The position numbers and the translations under genes were made by a program. Of a DNA stretch of 64,000 nt, positions 6,549 to 64,000 are shown piece after piece; within the stretch, counting starts at the first letter, position 1, and every line of letters starts with the position of its first letter. The stretch is taken from contig VLTN01000022.1 of NCBI GenBank assembly GCA_008330645.1, positions 420,822-484,821 on the forward strand. Direction: 5' to 3'. The DNA is from Cafeteria roenbergensis. Lineage: Eukaryota; Sar; Bigyra; Bicosoecida; Cafeteriaceae. A model generated the notes under the pieces. It saw only the letters and a list, made by a program, of their open reading frames with translations. It made no database searches and had not been told where the DNA came from.

Positions 6549-7635
6549 TCAGAGCATGCGCTGGACAAGCTTGTTGATGTGGGTCTCGCGGTTGCCGGCC
6601 TCGCCGCCCTCGTTGAAGTGCAGAAGCTTCTTGCTGAAGCCGCCAAGGGGGCTGGACAGCTTGAACGGCCACAGGAAGTTGTTGGCCTCCTTGAAGGCGG
6701 GGCCGACGGTGGCGATCTCGTGGATGAGGTCCTCGACGCAGATGATGTCGTGCTTGCCGAGCGCCTCCTCGACGACGGAGTTGTCGCTGAGGGGGATGCG
6801 CTGCTTGTTGATCTTGCCGAAGCCGCGCTTGTAGATGATCTCGCGCACGGTCTTGACGTTGGGGTAGCCCCAGGCAACGTACGGCACGACCATCTGCAGC
6901 ATCTGGAGGGTGGCGCGGTTCAGGCGCACGAAGACGGCGTTGTTGATCTGGCGCAGGCGGAGGAGCTGCATGATCTTGCGCACCTTGGGGGAGACGCCCA
7001 TGATACCGCGGATGCGGACCACCACGGCGAGCTTGGCCTCGGGCTCAACGAAGAAGGTGCCGGTGCTCTTGGCGGCGCGGCGCATCTGGATGAGCGAGCG
7101 CTCGCGAGCCTTGTACTCGGCGACGTACTTCTCGGCGCGCTTGAAGATGGCGGCGCGCTTGGTGCGGGCGTCCTTCTTGGCCTGGGCGCGGGCGGCGAGG
7201 GCCTCCTTGGCGGCGGCATCCTCGACCTTGCGCTTCAGGAGCACGGACTCCGGCACATGGCTGCAAGGAACAGGGGCAAAGGAGCAGGCGCGGATCGCAG
7301 AGGTGGCTGGAGGCTACACATCCGCACGGCGCAGGCGCCCGCTGGCGGAGGGCGGACACAAGCGCAAGCCGTGCCTGAGCAAAGCGAGCCCCTTTCAGCA
7401 CCCGCCCGAGCCCGCTCCCTGCCGCTCCTTGGCACCAGACGCCCCTTTCGTGCACCCCCGACAAGCCCGCAGCGCCTGAAAGCCACAGGCCTGTTCTTCC
7501 CAGCCCCAGCCAGGCGCGGCAGTTCGCTCTGGCTTCGCTTTGCGCCTCTGCTCTGGAATGCGAGGCGTGCCTGCGCAGCCCTGAGGCTCACGTCGGCTTG
7601 GCGTCGAGCTCAGCAAGAGTGGGCACAGCGGCCAT
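6549..7635 (-). CDS. RPL7: 60S ribosomal protein L7 (uL30)
   Basis: Cytosolic large-subunit ribosomal protein of the uL30 family. Exon 1 is 7635-7592 (14 codons plus 2 nt) and exon 2 is 7260-6549, joined across a 331-bp intron with a GTGAGC donor and TTGCAG acceptor; 251 residues, close to the usual eukaryotic length. The N-terminus reads [20 protein letters not shown]. The core is highly conserved: [84 protein letters not shown] and the C-terminal EGGEAGNRE. The upstream exon matters because the long exon alone has no ATG at the conserved start. An intron soon after the start codon is common in ribosomal protein genes. Divergent from the neighbouring aldo-keto reductase. Confidence 0.97.
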
Positions 7636-55456: not shown

Positions 55457-55545
55457 CCAGGGCTGTTGGTGGCGATGTCGGAGCGGCCGGCAGCGTCTCT
55501 GGTTGGACGAACTAGAATGGTCTGAGCTGATGCTCTCTGCATTAT

Positions 55546-55955
55546 TGAGGGGGGCGAGAACTCGCGTCCCCATGGCACGCACTCGATTCACAGACTCATC
55601 AAGAACCAATCCAGCAACTCCATCACCGATGAATCACAAACCGCGCCAAACCCGCAATCCCAAGACCCAAGCCCAGATCACTGCCATCACACCGCCACGA
55701 GTCGCCACTCAGCCGCCCCTGCTCACCGCATGCGCTCCACCTGCTGTCGCAGGTACTGCGTCTGCCCGATCAGCTGGGTCGCCAGTCCCTTGGCGATGAC
55801 CTCGTTCAGCCTCGACAGCCAGCGGAAGGCCCAGCGCGCACGCTCCCTCGGCCGCCCACCGAAGGCCGTGTCCGCCACCTTCTTGAGGAAGGCGAAGGCC
55901 GCCGGTCCCATGCGTCCCGTGGTCGTGACGACGAAGGGCACAATGGAGCTCATGT
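55546..55955 (-). mobile_element. Solitary 5'-truncated copy of the array retroelement
   Basis: About 410 bp matching the 3' end of the elements at 60670-64000: the same 3' UTR (GATTCACAGACTCATCAAG, CATCACCGATGAATCAC) and the final ~75 codons of the coding region, from near SSIVPFVVTTTGRMG to RQQVERMR stop. It has the same orientation as the array. It lacks the terminal TGAACATCGTT string; its 3' edge reads GAGGGGGGCGAGAAC. It is somewhat more diverged, so it is probably an older insertion. Confidence 0.88.
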
Positions 55956-56649
55956 TGACTTTCGTTTCCAGTACTCTGGCGCGAGCTTCGGAGCGGTGGT
56001 AGGACGGTCCATTTTCCACCGTGCTGTCCATCAAGCAGCAGCGACAGTTCCCTGTCTTCCCGCGCGGCAGTAGGGCTGGGTGCGGGGAAGCGGCACGGCC
56101 TGCAGGTGGGCGAGGCGCGCCTCTGCCGGCGCTGCCCACAGCTGTGAAACCTGCGCACGATTTTGTGGGAGCTTTTGCGCAGGACAGGGACGGGGCGGCA
56201 GGCGCAGGATGGCGGAGCCACGGGCGGGCGACCGGCGGGCGCTGCCTTCCAACAGTCTAGAGTCGGCCAAGCGATTCATCAGGATACGGGCTCCGCAGTG
56301 TCCTTCCAAGACTGCGAGTCACAGCTCTTGAGTTCTCAGCATAGTCGAGGCCAACTGCGATCTTGCCCGCCACTGAAAAATAGGAACAACACTCTCGCAC
56401 ATTCGCCTTCCCAACCCGCACCTGAGGACCAAGTGAGGGGCGCCAGGTGCTGCATCGTTGACCCGCAAGTCGTTTGCGCAGCATAGGGGGCGCGCGTTGT
56501 GACTGGGGAGCGGGCAGTCGGTGGGGTGCGTGCTGCCAGCCGGCCATCTCGATTTTTGCGCCCGCTCGCTGTTGCCGCCCGCCCGCTTCCTCGCAGTGGC
56601 CCACCGGTGCACAGATGGTGGCTGCAGAACCGCTTCGACTGAAAGCGGC
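55956..56649. other. Region between retroelement fragment and CLU-like/TPR gene
   Basis: 694 bp. It has no domain-bearing frame before the ATG at 56650. Part of it may be 5' leader, because the frame of the downstream gene stays open back to about 56520 without an ATG. Confidence 0.4.
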
Positions 56650-59600
56650 ATGTCCCCCGCGGCAGGGGCGTTCACGGCCCCGCAAGCCGGCGCTGCGGGA
56701 GCGGGCCAAGACGCAGCTTTGATTCAGCGAACCGTCCTCGCCCCTGGCCATGCCGCGCAAGCCAGCGCAGGCCATGGCGCTGCGGCTCGAGGAGCAGGCA
56801 TGCCGCTCCGTGCCGAGGGGCCAGCGGCAGCAGTCGCGGCTCACCCGGAGACCGTGGGCGACAAGGCCTCGCGCCTCCGCAACAAGCCCACGCTCACCGC
56901 CCACGACCACCTGGAGCGCTTGGAGGAACTGGCGGGAGTGCGACAGGCCTTCCAGCGTATCACGGAGGGCGCCGCTGACGCCATTGCTCGGGCCTTCCAC
57001 GACGCCAAGCAGCGCAAGCGCTGCGGCGACGACAGGCCGCTTCAGGCCATCACGCAGGAGTGCGTGGGCCGCTTGCGGGGCGGCGAGAGTCTCCAGGTGG
57101 TGGACGCAGGCATTGCAGGGGGCGTCAAGGTGGCCGACCCCAGCACGGGGGCCTTCTTCAAGATCGCCGAGGACACGGTGGGAATCTACAGGGGCTCCTC
57201 GGTGATGGCGGACAAGGCGGCCAAGCACGAGCTGGCCATGCTCACGCACCTCCACGATGCGGACGCGGCGCGGCTGCTGACCGTACCGCTGGCGTCGTGC
57301 GTGGACGTGACGGTGCGCGACGCGGCTGGTCGGCCGGAGCGGGTGTACCGCGTGCAGGGCTTCTCGCGGCACGCGGTCGGCGGCAGAACTCTGCGTGTGG
57401 GATCGGGCGACGGCGGAGTCACGGCACACGTGTGCGCGGAGCTGGACGGCGTGGCGGAGGAGCTGGCGGCGGGGCTGCACCTGGCCCCGAGTCTGATGAC
57501 TCCCCGCTCAGGCGACTTCACGCGGCACAGGTACCGGAGGGTGCGGGGCGGCAGGGATCCGGACAGTTTCCCGCGGCTGGGCCCGGCCACGGACGAGCTG
57601 CTGGAGAGCGTGGGGGCTGGCCGGCATGCGGCCGAGAGCTCGGGGGTGTGCGCGGCGGTGGAGGCGGAGCACGACGTGGTGCTGGACCCGCTGCGGCCGG
57701 TGCACGCGGAGCACTCGAAATCCCGGCAACGGAGGTTGCGAGGCCACATCCAGCGTCTGCCGTTCGACGTTGAGCTGCACGCGCTGCCGTGGGGCGAGGT
57801 GGTGCTGCTGGACACGCACCGGCTCTGCATCCCCGACGTGACCGGCGGCGCGGCGGCGGATGGCCAGATTGCGGTCGTGTGGGCCGCTACGCCCGGGGGC
57901 CCGTCTGGCGCTGAAGGTGAAAGCGGCAGGACAGCTGTGGATGCGTCGTCGTCCTCGTCCTCGCCGGTGCTGCGAGTGGTGGGGCTGCCGGAGGGCGGCT
58001 CAAGCGACGCTGTCTTGGCCACGCTGGCCGCTCGGGAGGCTGGGCTCCTGACGGGCGCCGACGCTCCGGTGTGGAACGCGGTCGAGCTGGGCCCTCTGGC
58101 GGCGTGCTGCGGGGTGGCGGTGCTGCAGTCGAGCGACGGGGCGATCCGAGTGCTCCTGCCGCGGCCCGGGCAGTTTTGGCGAGCAGCATACCTAACGGCG
58201 CTGTTCCGACCCGAGGCGGCGGCCGTGCTGCGGGAGGCGGGGGCGGAGCCGGTGTCACCGGACGCCGTGATGGAGGGTGGCAGGGATGCCGGGGGCCTTG
58301 CGAAGGGCAGGCTTGTGGATGCGGGCGACGTGTTGCTAGGCGCCCACAACGTGGGCCTGGCGGCGGACGCGGTGCAGGAGTGTCTGATCGCGTGCTGGCG
58401 AGCGGGGCAGGGCGATGACGTGGCGTCGGTGCGGCGAGCGGTCAAGGCCGGCCTTCACACCCGCGGGCTGGGGCTGCGGCACGCCTGGCGGGTGCTGGGC
58501 GCGGAGCTAGGCCGTGCACAGGAGCCCGGCGGGGTGGGGCTGCCTCCGTCAGTGTTGCGCGCCGCTGCGGCGTGCACCAGCCTCCCGAGCCCCGGGTCGA
58601 GCGGGGCAGCGGCGCTGGAGTGTCTGGTGTCTGAGGGAGCTGCAGGTGGCGCCGATGCGGATGCGGACTGGCTGAGGGCGTGCTGTGTGGCCCGGGGTGT
58701 GGCGTCCAAGGGCCGCGGCGTGCCGATGGCGACGGCGGTGCTGGTGGGCCGGGCAGCGGCCGCTGGCGGAATTGCCGTCGGGCAGGCGTGGGCGGCCATG
58801 CAGCGAGAGTGCGGGCGGCGCGTGAAGGTGTCTGGGTCCGGCGCGCGGAGCGAACGGCGAGGCGCTGCGTTGTCGTTCGGGGATGACTCGGCGGGACTGG
58901 CAGCGCGCATGATCGCGTCGCAGCTGCGCGGTTTGCGGCTGAGTGAGCGGCTGTGCGACGAGGCGTGGCGTCACCATCGTGGCGGCGCAGCGCATTCGCT
59001 TTCGGAGACGTGCGCACGGGAGTCTTCAGATGGCGCCTTAGAGGTGCTGTGCTTGTTGGTTGCGGCGGGGTGCAGCATAAACGCTGATGAGAGTAACGGT
59101 GAGGAGACGATGCTTCAGGCATGTGCTTTCCGCTTGCTGGAACGAGGCGAGTACGATGCGGCGCTGGATCTGCTGGAGCGGTGCAGGGACATCCACGCCT
59201 CGTCGCTGGGCGAGGAGCACCCGAGCTTCGCGGGCACGCTGTTCACGATGGCGCAGTGTCGGCAGGAGAAGGGGGAGTACGATGCGGCGCTTGGCCTGCT
59301 GGAGCGGTGCAGGGCCATCGAGGCCTCGTCGGTGGGCGAGGAGCACCCGAGCTTCGCGGGCACGCTGTTCACGATGGCGCAGTGTCGGCGTGCCAGGGGG
59401 GAGTACGATGCGGCGCTGGATCTGCTGGAGCGGTGCAGGGACATCCAGGCCCCGTCGGTGGGCGAGGAGCACCCGAGCTTCGCGAAAACGCTGTACACGA
59501 TGGCGCAGTGTCGGCGCGACAAGGGGGAGTACGATGCGGCGCTGGAGCTGCTGGAGCGCTGCAGGGACATCCAGGCCTCGTCGGTGGGCGAGGAGCACCC

Positions 59601-60657
59601 GAGCTTCGCGGGCACGCTGTCCACGATGGCGCAGTGTCGGCGTGCCAGGGGGGAGTACGATGCGGCGCTGGATCTGCTGGAGCGGTGCAGGGACATCCAG
59701 GCCCCGTCGGTGGGCGAGGAGCACCCGAGCTTCGCGAAAACGCTGTACACGATGGCGCAGTGTCGGCGCGACAAGGGGGAGTACGATGCGGCGCTGGATC
59801 TGCTGGAGCGGTGCAGGGCCATCGAGGCCTCGTCGGTGGGCGAGGAGCACCCGAGCTTCGCGGGCACGCTGTTCACGATGGCGCAGTGTCGGCGTGACAA
59901 GGGGGAGTACGATGCGGCGCTGGATCTGCTGGAGCGGTGCAGGGACATCCAGGCCTCGTCGGTGGGCGAGGACCACCCGAGCTTCGCGGGCACGCTGGCC
60001 ACGATGGCGCAGTGTCGGCAGGCCAAGGGGGAGTACGATGCGGCGCTGGAGCTGCTGGAGCGGTGCAGGGACATCGAGGCCTCGTCGGTGGGCGAGGAGC
60101 ACCCGAGCTTCGCGGGCACGCTGTACACGATGGCGCAGTGTCGGCGCGACAAGGGGGAGTACGATGCGGCGCTGGATCTGCTGGAGCGGTGCAGGGACAT
60201 CTTCGCCTCGTCGGTGGGCGAGGAGCACCCGAGCTTTGTGGGCACGCTGTACACGATGGCGCAGTGTCGGCGTGCCAGGGGGGAGTACGATGCGGCGCTG
60301 GATCTGCTGGAGCGGTGCAGGGCCATCGAGGCCTCGTCGGTGGGTGAGGAGCACCCGAGCTTCGCGGGCACGCTGTTCACGATGGCGCAGTGTCGGCGTG
60401 ACAAGGGGGAGTACGATACGGCGCTGGATCTGCTGGAGCGGTGCAGGGACATCTTCGCCTCGTCGCTGGGCGAGGAGCACCCGAGCTTCGCGGGCACGCT
60501 GTTCACGATGGCGCAGTGTCGGCAGAAGAAGGGGGAGTACGATGCGGCGCTGGATCTGCTCTCTCGGTGCTCTGTGATCTTCGCGAGGTCTTTAGGAGAA
60601 CGGCACCCCAATTTCTTGCTTGCGCGTCGATCGATTGAAGCTTTGCTTTGGAAATGA
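56650..60657 (+). CDS. CLU-like domain protein with twelve near-identical TPR repeats
   Basis: Intronless, 1,335 residues from ATG 56650 to TGA; ATG 56800, in frame, is a possible later start. Residues ~70-400 resemble the central domain of CLU/TIF31-type proteins: HELAMLTHLHDADAARLL, FSRHAVGGRTLRVGSGDGG, AEELAAGLHL and DVELHALPWGEVVLLDTHRL, compared with the LYGSxDGGRTVH and GxxYLLDxxRL features of that family. This assignment is by eye and moderate. The middle (400-820) is Ala-rich and helical. From residue 833 to the end there are twelve 42-residue TPRs of kinesin-light-chain type (GEYDAALDLLERCRDI, SVGEEHPSFAGTL, TMAQCR). CLU proteins bind mRNAs for mitochondrial proteins in other eukaryotes; here the repeats may serve another partner. 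The retroelement array begins 12 bp after its stop. Confidence 0.8.
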   Translation: MSPAAGAFTAPQAGAAGAGQDAALIQRTVLAPGHAAQASAGHGAAARGAGMPLRAEGPAAAVAAHPETVGDKASRLRNKPTLTAHDHLERLEELAGVRQAFQRITEGAADAIARAFHDAKQRKRCGDDRPLQAITQECVGRLRGGESLQVVDAGIAGGVKVADPSTGAFFKIAEDTVGIYRGSSVMADKAAKHELAMLTHLHDADAARLLTVPLASCVDVTVRDAAGRPERVYRVQGFSRHAVGGRTLRVGSGDGGVTAHVCAELDGVAEELAAGLHLAPSLMTPRSGDFTRHRYRRVRGGRDPDSFPRLGPATDELLESVGAGRHAAESSGVCAAVEAEHDVVLDPLRPVHAEHSKSRQRRLRGHIQRLPFDVELHALPWGEVVLLDTHRLCIPDVTGGAAADGQIAVVWAATPGGPSGAEGESGRTAVDASSSSSSPVLRVVGLPEGGSSDAVLATLAAREAGLLTGADAPVWNAVELGPLAACCGVAVLQSSDGAIRVLLPRPGQFWRAAYLTALFRPEAAAVLREAGAEPVSPDAVMEGGRDAGGLAKGRLVDAGDVLLGAHNVGLAADAVQECLIACWRAGQGDDVASVRRAVKAGLHTRGLGLRHAWRVLGAELGRAQEPGGVGLPPSVLRAAAACTSLPSPGSSGAAALECLVSEGAAGGADADADWLRACCVARGVASKGRGVPMATAVLVGRAAAAGGIAVGQAWAAMQRECGRRVKVSGSGARSERRGAALSFGDDSAGLAARMIASQLRGLRLSERLCDEAWRHHRGGAAHSLSETCARESSDGALEVLCLLVAAGCSINADESNGEETMLQACAFRLLERGEYDAALDLLERCRDIHASSLGEEHPSFAGTLFTMAQCRQEKGEYDAALGLLERCRAIEASSVGEEHPSFAGTLFTMAQCRRARGEYDAALDLLERCRDIQAPSVGEEHPSFAKTLYTMAQCRRDKGEYDAALELLERCRDIQASSVGEEHPSFAGTLSTMAQCRRARGEYDAALDLLERCRDIQAPSVGEEHPSFAKTLYTMAQCRRDKGEYDAALDLLERCRAIEASSVGEEHPSFAGTLFTMAQCRRDKGEYDAALDLLERCRDIQASSVGEDHPSFAGTLATMAQCRQAKGEYDAALELLERCRDIEASSVGEEHPSFAGTLYTMAQCRRDKGEYDAALDLLERCRDIFASSVGEEHPSFVGTLYTMAQCRRARGEYDAALDLLERCRAIEASSVGEEHPSFAGTLFTMAQCRRDKGEYDTALDLLERCRDIFASSLGEEHPSFAGTLFTMAQCRQKKGEYDAALDLLSRCSVIFARSLGERHPNFLLARRSIEALLWK
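59146..60657. repeat. Twelve 126-bp coding tandem repeats (TPR array)
   Basis: Period is exactly 126 bp (42 codons). Internal units differ at only a few positions, mostly at D/A, I-Q/E/F-A and RRDK/RARG/RQAK. The first and last units are the most diverged, as expected when an array expands from its middle by unequal exchange. Confidence 0.95.
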
Positions 60658-60669
60658 TTGAACTATGGG

Positions 60670-61284
60670 TGAACATCGTTGGGGGGGGTCGAAAACTCGC
60701 GTCACCATACCACACACTCGATTCACAGACTCACCAATCACCAATCCAGCAACTCCATCACCGATGAATCACAAACCGCGCGAAACCCGCAATCCCAAGT
60801 CCAAAGCCCAGGATTAGATTGAATGAACATTGTTGGGGGGGGTCGAAAACTCGCAGCACCATACCACACACTCGATTCACAGACTCACCAATCACCAATC
60901 CAGCAACTCCATCACCGATGAATCACAAACCGCGCGAAACCCGCAATCCCAAGTCCAAAGCCCAGGATTAGATTGAATGAACATTGTTGGGGCGGTCGAA
61001 AACTCGCAGCACCATACCACACACTCGATTCACAGACTCATCAAGAACCAACCCAGCAACTCCATCACCGATGAATCACAAACCGCGCGAAACCCGCAAT
61101 CCCAAGTCCAAAGCCCAGGATTAGATTGAATGAACATCGTTGGGGGGGGTCGAAAACTCGCAGCACCATACCACACACTCGATTCACAGACTCATCAAGA
61201 ACCAACCCAGCAACTCCATCACCGATGAATCACAAACCGCGCGAAACCCGCAATCCCAAGTCCAAAGCCCAGGATTAGATTGAA
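60670..61284 (-). mobile_element. Array units 1-4: four ~154-bp 5'-truncated retroelement ends
   Basis: Four head-to-tail copies (60670-60823, 60824-60977, 60978-61130, 61131-61284) containing only the last ~140 bp of the 3' UTR, beginning on the plus strand with TGAACAT(C/T)GTTGGGG. All are truncated at the same base, after CCAAAGCCCAG, and followed by the same filler GATTAGATTGAA. Units 1-2 carry the variant CACCAATCACCAATCC and units 3-4 carry CATCAAGAACCAACCC. One G is missing from the G-run of unit 3. Confidence 0.92.
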
Positions 61285-61650
61285 TGAACATCGTTGGGGG
61301 GGGTCAAAAACTTGCGTAACCATGCCACACACTCGAGTCACAGACTCACCAATCACCAATCCAGCAACTCCATCACCGATGAATCACAATCCCCGCCAAA
61401 CCCACAATCCCAAGTCTCAAGTCCCAGATCCCTGCCATCACACTGCCTCGAGTCGCCACTCAGCCGCCCCTGCTCACCGCATACGCTCCACCTGCTGCCG
61501 CAGGTACTGCGTCTGCCCGATCAGCTGGTTCGCCAGTCCCTTGGCGATGACCTCGTTCAGCCTCGACAGCCAGCGGAAGGCCCAGCGCGCACGCTCCCTC
61601 GGCCGCCCACCGAAGGCCGTGTCCGCCACTAGTGTCATGTTTAGGTTGAA
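61285..61650 (-). mobile_element. Array unit 5: 366-bp truncated retroelement
   Basis: Contains the complete 3' UTR and the last ~53 codons (VADTAFGGRPRERARWAF to QQVERMR stop). The 5' truncation lies at GTCCGCCAC, followed by 21 bp of non-element filler ending GTTTAGGTTGAA, then the 3' end of unit 6. Confidence 0.92.
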
Positions 61651-62140
61651 TGAACATCGTTGGGGGGGGTCGAAAACTCGCGTAACCATGCCACACACTC
61701 GATTCACAGACTCACCAATCACCAATCCAGCAACTCCATCACCGATGAATCACAATCCCCGCCAAACCCACAATCCCAAGTCTCAAATCCCAGATCACTC
61801 CCATCACACTGCCACGAGCCGCCACTCAGCCGCCCCTGCTCACCGCATGCGCTCCACCTGCTGTCGCAGGTACTGCGTCTGCCCGATCAGCTGGTTCGCC
61901 AGTCCCTTGGCGATGACCTCGTTCAGCCTCGACAGCCAGCGAAAGGCCCAGCGCGCACGCTCCCTCGGCCGGTCGCCGAAGGCCGTGTCCGCCACCTTCT
62001 TGAGGAAGGCGAAGGCCGCCGGTCCCATGCGTCCCGTGGTCGTGATGACGAAGGGCACAATGGAGCTCAAGTTGTCCTTTGTAGCTGAGCTCTTCTTGTA
62101 CTCCCTCATCTTGTCATTATCACGGCGCTCGAGATGAAGA
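61651..62140 (-). mobile_element. Array unit 6: 490-bp truncated retroelement
   Basis: Same 3' end, with coding sequence extending back to NDKMREYKKSSATKDN. The 5' truncation is at GGCGCTCGAG with filler ATGAAGA. Differs from unit 7 by a few substitutions (for example N/R before DNDKM). Confidence 0.92.
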
Positions 62141-63110
62141 TGAACATCGTTGGGGGGGGTCGAAAACTCGCGTCGCCATACCACACACTCGATTCACAGA
62201 CTCATCAAAAACCAATCCAGCAACTCCATCACCGATGAATCACAAACCGCTCCAAACCCGCAATCCCAAGTCTCAAGTCCCAGATCACTCCCATCACACT
62301 GCCACGAGTCGCCACTCAGCCGCCCCTGCTCACCGCATACGCTCCACCTGCTGTCGCAGGTACTGCGTCTGCCCGATCAGCTGGGTCGCCAGTCCCTTGG
62401 CGATGACCTCGTTCAGCCTCGACAGCCAGCGAAAGGCCCAGCGCGCACGCTCCCTCGGCCGGTCGCCGAAGGCCGTGTCCGCCACCTTCTTGAGGAAGGC
62501 GAAGGCCGCCGGTCCCATGCGTCCCGTGGTCGTGATGACGAAGGGCACAATGGAGCTCAAGTTGTCCTTTGTAGCTGAGCTCTTCTTGTACTCCCTCATC
62601 TTGTCATTCTCACGGCGCTCGAGAAAGGCGTCCATGCTCTGCAGGCCCTGCGTCACGTAGGACTTGCTCACCGCCGAGGTGATCTGCACGTCGACGAGAC
62701 AGGTGGTCTCGAAGTCGACGTGCACCCGCAGGTCCGGTCGCTTGCGCGCGGCCTCGCTGGACCCCGGCTGGGACCCGAAGCGCGTCTGCCCGTCCTGCCA
62801 GCTGGAGGGCTCCACCACCGACTGTAGTCCCGCCGAGCGCACCGCTGCGTGCAGCACGTCGCGGACATCGTTGTGCGCCCGGATGGTGGAGCCCTTGCCG
62901 CAGCGGCAACGCGCCAGGTGGTGCGCCACGCCGGAGACCCCGCCGATGTGGACGGTGCCTCTCGCGGTGGTGTCTCGCTGCATGCACGCGCAGTTGATCG
63001 ACACGCCGTCCGGCACCACGTGGTCGGCCTCGGAGGCTCCGATGCGGTAGCGTTCCACCACCGCAAACTCCTCGTCCGCGAGCCCGCGGGGTCCCATCAT
63101 AGTGATTGAA
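62141..63110 (-). mobile_element. Array unit 7: 970-bp retroelement with C-terminal endonuclease-like region
   Basis: The longest fully contained copy. The minus-strand frame, entering at 63110 and stopping at 62330, encodes about 258 residues: a Cys/His cluster (CACMQ, then VAHHLARCRCGKG), a basic-to-helical block IRAHNDVRDVLHAAVRSAGL, then KRPDLRVHVDFETTCLVDVQ, a restriction-like (PD-D/ExK) nuclease pattern, and ENDKMREYKK followed by LSSIVPFVITTTGRMGPAAF. A zinc knuckle followed by such a nuclease is the usual C-terminus of site-preferring non-LTR retrotransposons. The reverse transcriptase itself lies 5' and is absent here. Junction to unit 8 is ATAGTGATTGAA. Confidence 0.88.
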
Positions 63111-64000
63111 TGAACATCGTTGGGGGGGGTCGAAAACTCGCGTAACCATGCCACACACTCGATTCACAGACTCACCAATCACCAATCCAGCAACTCCATC
63201 ACCGATGAATCACAAATCGCGCCAAACCCACAATCCCAAGTCCCAAGCCCAGATCACTCCCATCACACTGCCACGAGTCGCCACTCAGCCGCCCCTGCTC
63301 ACCGCATACGCTCCACCTGCTGTCGCAGGTACTGCGTCTGCCCGATCAGCTGGGTCGCCAGTCCCTTGGCGATGACCTCGTTCAGCCTCGACAGCCAGCG
63401 GAAGGCCCAGCGCGCACGCTCCCTCGGCCGGTCGCCGAAGGCCGTGTCCGCCACCTTCTTGAGGAAGGCGAAGGCCGCCGGTCCCATGCGTCCCGTGGTC
63501 GTGATGACGAAGGGCACAATGGAGCTCAAGTTGTCCTTTGTAGCTGAGCTCTTCTTGTACTCCCTCATCTTGTCATTCTCACGGCGCTCGAGAAAGGCGT
63601 CCATGCTCTGCAGGCCCTGCGTCACGTAGGACTTGCTCACCGCCGAGGTGATCTGCACGTCGACGAGACAGGTGGTCTCGAAGTCGACGTGCACCCGCAG
63701 GTCCGGTCGCTTGCGCGCGGCCTCGCTGGACCCCGGCTGGGACCCGAAGCGCGTCTGCCCGTCCTGCCAGCTGGAGGGCTCCACCACCGACTGTAGTCCC
63801 GCCGAGCGCACCGCTGCGTGCAGCACGTCGCGGACATCGTTGTGCGCCCGGATGGTGGAGCCCTTGCCGCAGCGCAACGCGCCAGGGTGGTGCGCCACGC
63901 CGGAGACCCCGCCGATGTGGACGGTGCCTCTCGCGGTGGTGTCTCGCTGCATGCACGCGCAGTTGATCGACACGCCGTCCGGCACCACGTGGTCGGCCTC
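63111..64000 (-). mobile_element. Array unit 8: retroelement copy running out of the window
   Basis: Same 3' UTR and coding region as unit 7 and at least 890 bp long. It is nearly identical to unit 7 but has a 1-bp deletion near 63874 and a 1-bp insertion near 63886. These shift and restore the frame, changing HHLARCRCGKG to HHPGALRCGKG and removing one Cys of the zinc-knuckle-like cluster. The 5' end is not seen. Confidence 0.9.

Follow-up and report, generated by a model that had tools for sequence, protein, structure and literature searches.

Retrotransposon arrays at contig ends of Cafeteria burkhardae: a probable telomere-associated system

Why does a contig of Cafeteria roenbergensis (now C. 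burkhardae; PMC6972860) run out in a head-to-tail series of shortened copies of one retroelement, all facing the same way? The window analysed here is a stretch of 64,000 bases, positions 420,822 to 484,821 of contig VLTN01000022.1 (C22; 484,821 bases), and its right edge is the end of that contig. From position 60,671 to this edge, sequence reading and a repeat search find one element repeated eight times; the copies share their 3′ end, which lies toward the genes, and each is antisense on the + strand. This confirms the copy number, shared 3′ end, single orientation and spacings given in a preliminary description of the window. That description went on to propose a telomere-extending or subtelomeric array of 5′-truncated non-long-terminal-repeat (non-LTR) elements; the oriented array at a contig end stands, and a chromosome end is probable. 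The explanation we judge probable is a telomere-associated non-LTR retrotransposon of C. burkhardae, added onto eroded and sometimes telomerase-seeded chromosome ends in the manner of the MoTeR and FoTeR elements.

The array itself records two kinds of event. Start-to-start spacing, measured on a GAACAT motif, is 154, 154, 153, 154, 366, 490 and 970 bp, the outermost copy leaving the edge after about 890 bp, and fillers of 7–22 nt separate the copies (Table 1). Every one of the four units of about 154 bp ends at element position 142, and all four junctions carry the same filler, GATTAGATTGAAT. Because stop and filler are the same, these units look like local duplicates of one amplified junction, and four independent short insertions were rejected on this ground. 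Aligned to a long copy, the short units are 96, 94, 89 and 92% identical and the four longer ones 96% each, which gives a weak hint, over stretches that are not comparable, that the short copies may be older. The earlier proposal that the shortest, innermost copies are the oldest thus has this hint in its favour and the shared junction against it.

What kind of element is this? A search for copies with a reverse transcriptase, suggested in the preliminary description, finds many long ones. One of them, on contig C28 (locus L040), extends for 7,357 bp before the next unit and is readable for 1,823 amino acids from one in-frame ATG. An RVT_1 domain occupies residues 647–853 of this frame (76.3 bits, Pfam), with the catalytic motif MADD, and among solved structures the best sequence matches are to R2 and LINE-1 proteins (E about 1e-4). 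Near the C terminus HLARC-x8-RAHN is followed by RPD-x13-D, an order matching that of the MoTeR1 motif as quoted in PMC12857005, with the first cysteines spaced differently. Copy 7 of the window encodes the C-terminal portion of the element's protein, in which HxxxC-x8-RAHN and RPD-x13-D resemble motifs of restriction-like endonucleases. The endonuclease part has no relative in Pfam or among solved chains, a single below-cut-off match being taken as chance, and its structure model is too poor for comparison (predicted local distance difference test score, pLDDT, 41.6). A Pfam scan of the 1,823-residue frame finds only RVT_1 and no apurinic/apyrimidinic endonuclease. On the 5′ side of the C28 copy a 72-bp unit is repeated 19.3 times. 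The predicted protein identifies the element as a non-LTR retrotransposon, probably, by motif, of the restriction-like-endonuclease type (R2/CRE-like).

Reverse transcriptase matches number 65, and 31 of the 32 strongest contain no internal stop. The ratio of nonsynonymous to synonymous substitution (dN/dS) has a median of 0.28 and a range of 0.09–0.62 over the 152 pairs with more than five synonymous changes, of 159 comparable pairs; the pairs are mutually non-independent, and of the 19 rows compared, one is the C28 copy and 18 are loci, at least three row pairs covering a single genomic copy each. These values place the predicted protein under purifying selection, and the family looks recently active. 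No relatives of the element were confirmed in viral contigs.

The polarity seen in the window recurs at contig ends elsewhere in the genome (36,303,456 bases in 167 contigs searched; the window is about 70% G+C). The 26-nt 3′ end of the element, with up to three mismatches, has 254 matches (143 forward, 111 reverse), compared with none genome-wide for the reversed motif. Placement was made for 100 listed matches of the 254; each of these is exact, and together they are spread over 45 contigs (C1–C76) and 51 contig ends. The sizes of four of these contigs were bounded from their neighbours, assuming size-ordered contigs, and the matches on them lie less than 3 kb from the low end. In all 100 listed exact matches the 3′ end points inward relative to the nearest contig end. 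Ninety-two lie within 15 kb of a contig end, a zone that makes up about 6.6% of the bases of those contigs; 95 lie within 20 kb, and five are more than 20 kb inside. A 161-bp query gives 50 matches, 48 of them placeable (two are on a contig of unknown size), with the expected polarity in 47 of the 48 and a position within 15 kb of a contig end in 46. Mapped genome-wide, as the preliminary description had proposed, the 3′ end shows nearly always one polarity at contig ends.

Other probes give a similar picture. Of the 65 reverse transcriptase matches, the 32 strongest were scored, together with 14 weak ones in other frames as a contrast. Of the strongest, 31 are placeable, and 28 have the expected polarity and 28 lie within 15 kb of a contig end; the contrast matches, probably of other families, include nine that are placeable (six with this polarity, five near an end), too few to help. 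The exact 14-mer TGAACATCGTTGGG occurs 284 times genome-wide. Of the 100 occurrences listed and placed (C27 being assigned a size of about 450 kb), 83 are no more than 20 kb from a contig end, and 80 of these 83 show the expected polarity.

What lies between the copies is the second line of evidence, and goes beyond the preliminary description: some junctions carry telomere-like sequence. Junctions were mapped against the long copy in 21 longer stretches and 17 one-kilobase ends. The inner end is visible in 51 forward units; 47 of them begin at element position 1–9 and the remaining four at 318, 49, 340 and 1835, and the 5′ stops vary in position. At the low end of C1 (L021, outward coordinates 6658–7184) 527 bp of other sequence split an element copy at position 318, and at the low end of C4 two 389-bp units have the same junction. 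We read 39 distinct copy-to-copy junctions; at three the copies abut or overlap, and 36 contain fillers of 1–34 nt, such as TTAGGGT, TAGGGTTAGGTTGAT, TGGGTTAGGGTTAGATTTAGGAT and GGTTAGGATAGAAT. These fillers total 310 nt, made up of 106 T, 102 A, 78 G and 24 C in a genome of 70% G+C. TTAGG occurs six times in them, compared with a mean of 0.58 in within-filler shuffles, and none of 20,000 shuffles reaches six; TTAG is present in seven of the 36 fillers and CCTAA in none. Genome-wide, TTAGG stands 0–14 nt before the 14-mer at 21 of its 284 places, compared with one of 284 for CCTAA, the orientation control (Fisher p = 8e-6); reversed-pattern controls (0) are uninformative, the fixed part being absent when reversed. 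It is on the shuffles and on this genome-wide comparison of TTAGG with CCTAA that the claim of telomere sequence rests. Nearly all fillers (35 of the 36) have T as their last base, so that one T is probably part of the element or of a pairing primer.

Does the genome have ordinary telomeres as well? Neither an exact (TTAGGG)3 nor GGTTAGGGTTAGGG is found in the assembly. With up to three mismatches (TTAGGG)3 occurs 12 times, compared with 41 for the reversed control, and one of the 12 is at a copy junction; three TTAGG units with spacers of 0–4 nt occur nowhere in the 36.3 Mb, compared with five occurrences for the reversed control. None of the TTAGG-type tracts tried is present in the assembly, repeat types without TTAGG being outside the search, and the recovery of TTGGGG repeats shows that the pattern search detects short tandem repeats. 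Thirty-eight contig ends were read, 17 high and 21 low (one low end reads as N), and only the low end of C7 finishes in telomere-like sequence, with a terminal GGTTGGGTTAGGTTAGGGT on the outward strand. At that end (L028:1-3340) degenerate frames, which read as Ngaro-like from the frames alone, lie between the array and the terminal sequence. A gene on C17 matches Telomerase_RBD with 33.9 bits, compared with a cut-off of 25 (Pfam), and two stretches of its product show weak similarity to a telomerase reverse transcriptase of solved structure (E 0.003). By these sequence matches the genome carries a predicted telomerase gene.

How might such arrays be built? At a right-hand chromosome end the + strand would carry the free 3′ end. 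Reverse transcription of element RNA from this terminal 3′ end would produce a new copy antisense on the + strand, whose 3′ end lies inward and whose 5′ end points outward. Incomplete copying or erosion of the end would shorten the most recent 5′ end, a telomerase-like activity would sometimes append a short, irregular run of TTAGG-type nucleotides, and priming of the following copy could take place there. Erosion, brief telomerase addition and retrotransposition, taken in turn, would leave the order truncated 5′ end, telomere-like filler and new 3′ end, and local recombination would also duplicate units, for example the four like units of 154 bp. An endonuclease nick close to the end is a possible alternative to priming on a free end. 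We infer that the contig ends are chromosome ends, that priming is from free ends and that the fillers are made by telomerase; the element may help to maintain chromosome ends alongside telomerase. A bolder version, in which Cafeteria ends have no regular telomerase arrays and the terminus is the retrotransposon array itself, telomerase adding only short irregular seeds for priming, is possible but doubtful. If true, it would describe a two-step telomere, built by telomerase plus retroelement, that falls between the ordinary type and the Drosophila type.

Several observations weigh against a telomere-associated element. Enrichment at contig ends alone proves little, because repeats break assemblies, and we have therefore rested the argument on polarity and fillers. 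The fillers themselves mostly carry no telomere unit, 29 of the 36 being without TTAG. At 63 inner junctions TTAGG is found in six, but also in three of the reversed strings, and the broader set TTTAG/TTAGG/TTAGA, present at 10 of 63 compared with 8 of 63 in reversed strings, mostly reflects base composition. No contig among the ends read is closed by a recognisable telomere tract, the end of C7 being telomere-like at most. Polarity, too, has its exceptions. Three of the 83 near-end 14-mer matches listed are reversed; a close copy (C85:98224) and a reverse transcriptase copy (C85:101299) are reversed near the high end of C85; the low end of C10 holds a reversed element array of 84–87% identity; and on the 40-kb contig C107, of three scored reverse transcriptase copies, two point away from the nearer end. 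Internally, a minority of copies, mostly diverged, is found in mixed orientation. Among the 14-mer matches listed, 17 of 100 are more than 20 kb inside, and 11 of these 17 have the end-facing polarity, which is near random. Mostly internal copies in random orientation, which the preliminary description held would refute its proposal, are seen in part, in this minority and in the reversed copies on C85 and C10.

Some of these places have features of their own. The low end of C10 (L031:1-10000) carries a 5.7-kb tandem unit of 99.9% identity, containing reversed, diverged element pieces and a 669-residue open frame. Among internal copies on C6 (294–303 kb), one abuts an inverted diverged copy. 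In the middle of the roughly 450-kb contig C27 (229765-249075), four of the 14-nt 3′ ends lie 6.2–6.9 kb apart in one orientation, possibly an internal macrosatellite or a centromere-like cluster.

Could the arrays instead be subtelomeric, with an endonuclease nicking telomere-like or older element DNA near the ends, insertion proceeding in one orientation, and telomerase tracts capping the chromosome further out? The endonuclease-like motif of the element would suit such a process, and MoTeR elements sit in TTAGGG-bearing telomeres, as described in PMC7367193. The contigs stop inside arrays, so that caps could be unassembled, and the low end of C7 does terminate in GGTTGGGTTAGGTTAGGGT. However, neither the triple TTAGG nor GGTTAGGGTTAGGG is found in the 36.3 Mb, the short fillers mostly lack telomere units, and in the maps no split copy resumes beyond another element copy, the copy at the low end of C1 being split by other sequence. 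We regard this explanation as rather unlikely, while giving it real weight.

A different possibility is that the arrays have grown mainly by recombination between ends, through break-induced replication or unequal exchange, with little new retrotransposition. Amplification of this kind would account for the window's four matching units of 154 bp and for the paired 389-bp units at the low end of C4, but the distinct junctions, whose truncation points mostly differ, the long stop-free frames of the strongest reverse transcriptase matches and the purifying selection all argue against it as the main process, and we think it very unlikely. Still less probable, indeed highly improbable, is an assembly artefact, in which an ordinary dispersed repeat ends contigs simply because the assembler could not cross it. 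Long-read coverage was modest (13–45x per strain; PMC6972860), and the reversed copies on C85 and C10 and the mixed orientation of internal copies are what a dispersed repeat might show. Yet such a repeat predicts approximately equal orientations, contrary to the polarity of the exact 26-nt and the placeable 161-bp matches, and the one-sense telomere-like sequence (21 compared with 1) would be left unexplained. Addition of a telomere-associated retrotransposon to chromosome ends thus remains the reading we prefer.

The neighbourhood of the array is summarised in Table 1. The diverged element fragment inward of the last gene has the same polarity as the array. Within that gene, at 59020-60705, about a dozen 126-bp repeats, mostly of 89–95% identity, adjoin the array. 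On C28 a 102-bp tandem repeat of 5.7 copies (L040:1-584) lies directly inward of the array. The low end of C16 (L037:1-10000) is AT-rich in this 70% G+C genome, possibly an endogenous virophage as described for this host.

Table 1. Coordinates in the window of the array copies, their fillers and the adjoining features
Feature	Position	Strand	Basis
Diverged element fragment (element 9-431 from 3′ end), inward of TPR gene	55545..55965	-	93% identity to long copy
TPR-repeat gene, 1,384-residue open frame, last gene before array	56503..60657	+	Open reading frame list; Pfam TPR_12, 246 bits
Copy 1, element 1-142, innermost of array	60671..60811	-	Repeat search and map to long copy
Filler GATTAGATTGAAT, degenerate telomere-like, recurring at next three junctions	60812..60824	+	Junction reading
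Copy 2, element 1-142	60825..60965	-	Repeat search and map to long copy
Copy 3, element 1-142	60979..61118	-	Repeat search and map to long copy
Copy 4, element 1-142	61132..61272	-	Repeat search and map to long copy
Copy 5, element 1-344	61286..61629	-	Map to long copy
22-nt filler ending in GTTTAGGTTGAAT (telomere-like)	61630..61651	+	Junction reading
Copy 6, element 1-483	61652..62134	-	Map to long copy
7-nt filler TGAAGAT	62135..62141	+	Junction reading
Copy 7, element 1-959	62142..63100	-	Open reading frame list and map to long copy
11-nt filler AGTGATTGAAT	63101..63111	+	Junction reading
Copy 8, element 1-890, ended by contig end	63112..64000	-	Map to long copy

Telomere-associated retroelements are known from few lineages. 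In the titles and opening parts of abstracts searched, we found no report of a telomere-linked retroelement in Cafeteria, in a stramenopile or in a bicosoecid, and the string 'telomer' does not occur in the main text of PMC6972860 or of PMC8547959. The present system, whose telomere seeds are unusually degenerate, may explain why recognisable telomeres are missing in the assembly of this widely used virophage host. Cafeteria is a model protist kept in culture, and four of its strains have been sequenced (BVI, E4-10P, Cflag and RCC970-E3). If our interpretation is right, one could test there how the maintenance of chromosome ends is divided between telomerase and retroelements, and whether such a division can lead toward telomerase becoming dispensable.

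How does the Cafeteria system compare with those already known? Clustered non-LTR copies occur as Zepp in green algae, and head-to-tail non-LTR arrays stand at the chromosome ends of Drosophila, where HeT-A, TART and TAHRE belong to another clade and no telomerase is known. The preliminary description likened the window to HeT-A and TART; the array polarity agrees, and the parallel needs amending because Cafeteria, unlike Drosophila, has a predicted telomerase gene. Giardia, from a different eukaryotic supergroup, is a further case. Its GilM and GilT are telomeric elements with reverse transcription toward the chromosome end and, as far as the description in a review allows the likeness (PMC10999387), resemble the Cafeteria element in having a protist host with telomerase and the same orientation at ends.

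The closest parallels are MoTeR and FoTeR. MoTeR1 and MoTeR2 of Magnaporthe (Pyricularia) oryzae form head-to-tail arrays with the 5′ end toward the chromosome end and telomere sequence between copies; truncated 5′ ends gain telomeres de novo, arrays amplified in tandem keep their junctions identical, and some relics lie internally (PMC7367193). The restriction-like endonuclease motif of MoTeR is quoted as C..C..H..C..RHD..RAD (PMC12857005). The Cafeteria arrays are likewise head-to-tail, 5′ outward and truncated, with some telomere-like junctions, amplified junctions and some internal copies. In contrast, MoTeR junctions carry (TTAGGG)n tracts ranging between half a unit and over 20 units (PMC7367193). 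Cafeteria is a stramenopile, its fillers are degenerate and 0–34 nt long, and its assembly contains none of the telomere tracts looked for. FoTeR of Fusarium oxysporum encodes a reverse transcriptase and a restriction-like endonuclease, lies in consistent orientation with its 5′ end toward the terminus, has truncated copies outnumbering full ones, and carries tandem repeats upstream of its open reading frame (PMC12857005), to which the roughly 19 copies of the 72-bp unit in Cafeteria correspond. FoTeR differs in having 4–55 copies per genome, none at non-telomeric loci, compared with 254 3′ ends, some of them internal, in Cafeteria, and typically 3–7 TAACCC repeats in place of degenerate fillers (PMC12857005). 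In our judgement what is new is an element in Cafeteria that works like MoTeR and FoTeR, and differs from them by its degenerate fillers and by having no visible telomere cap.

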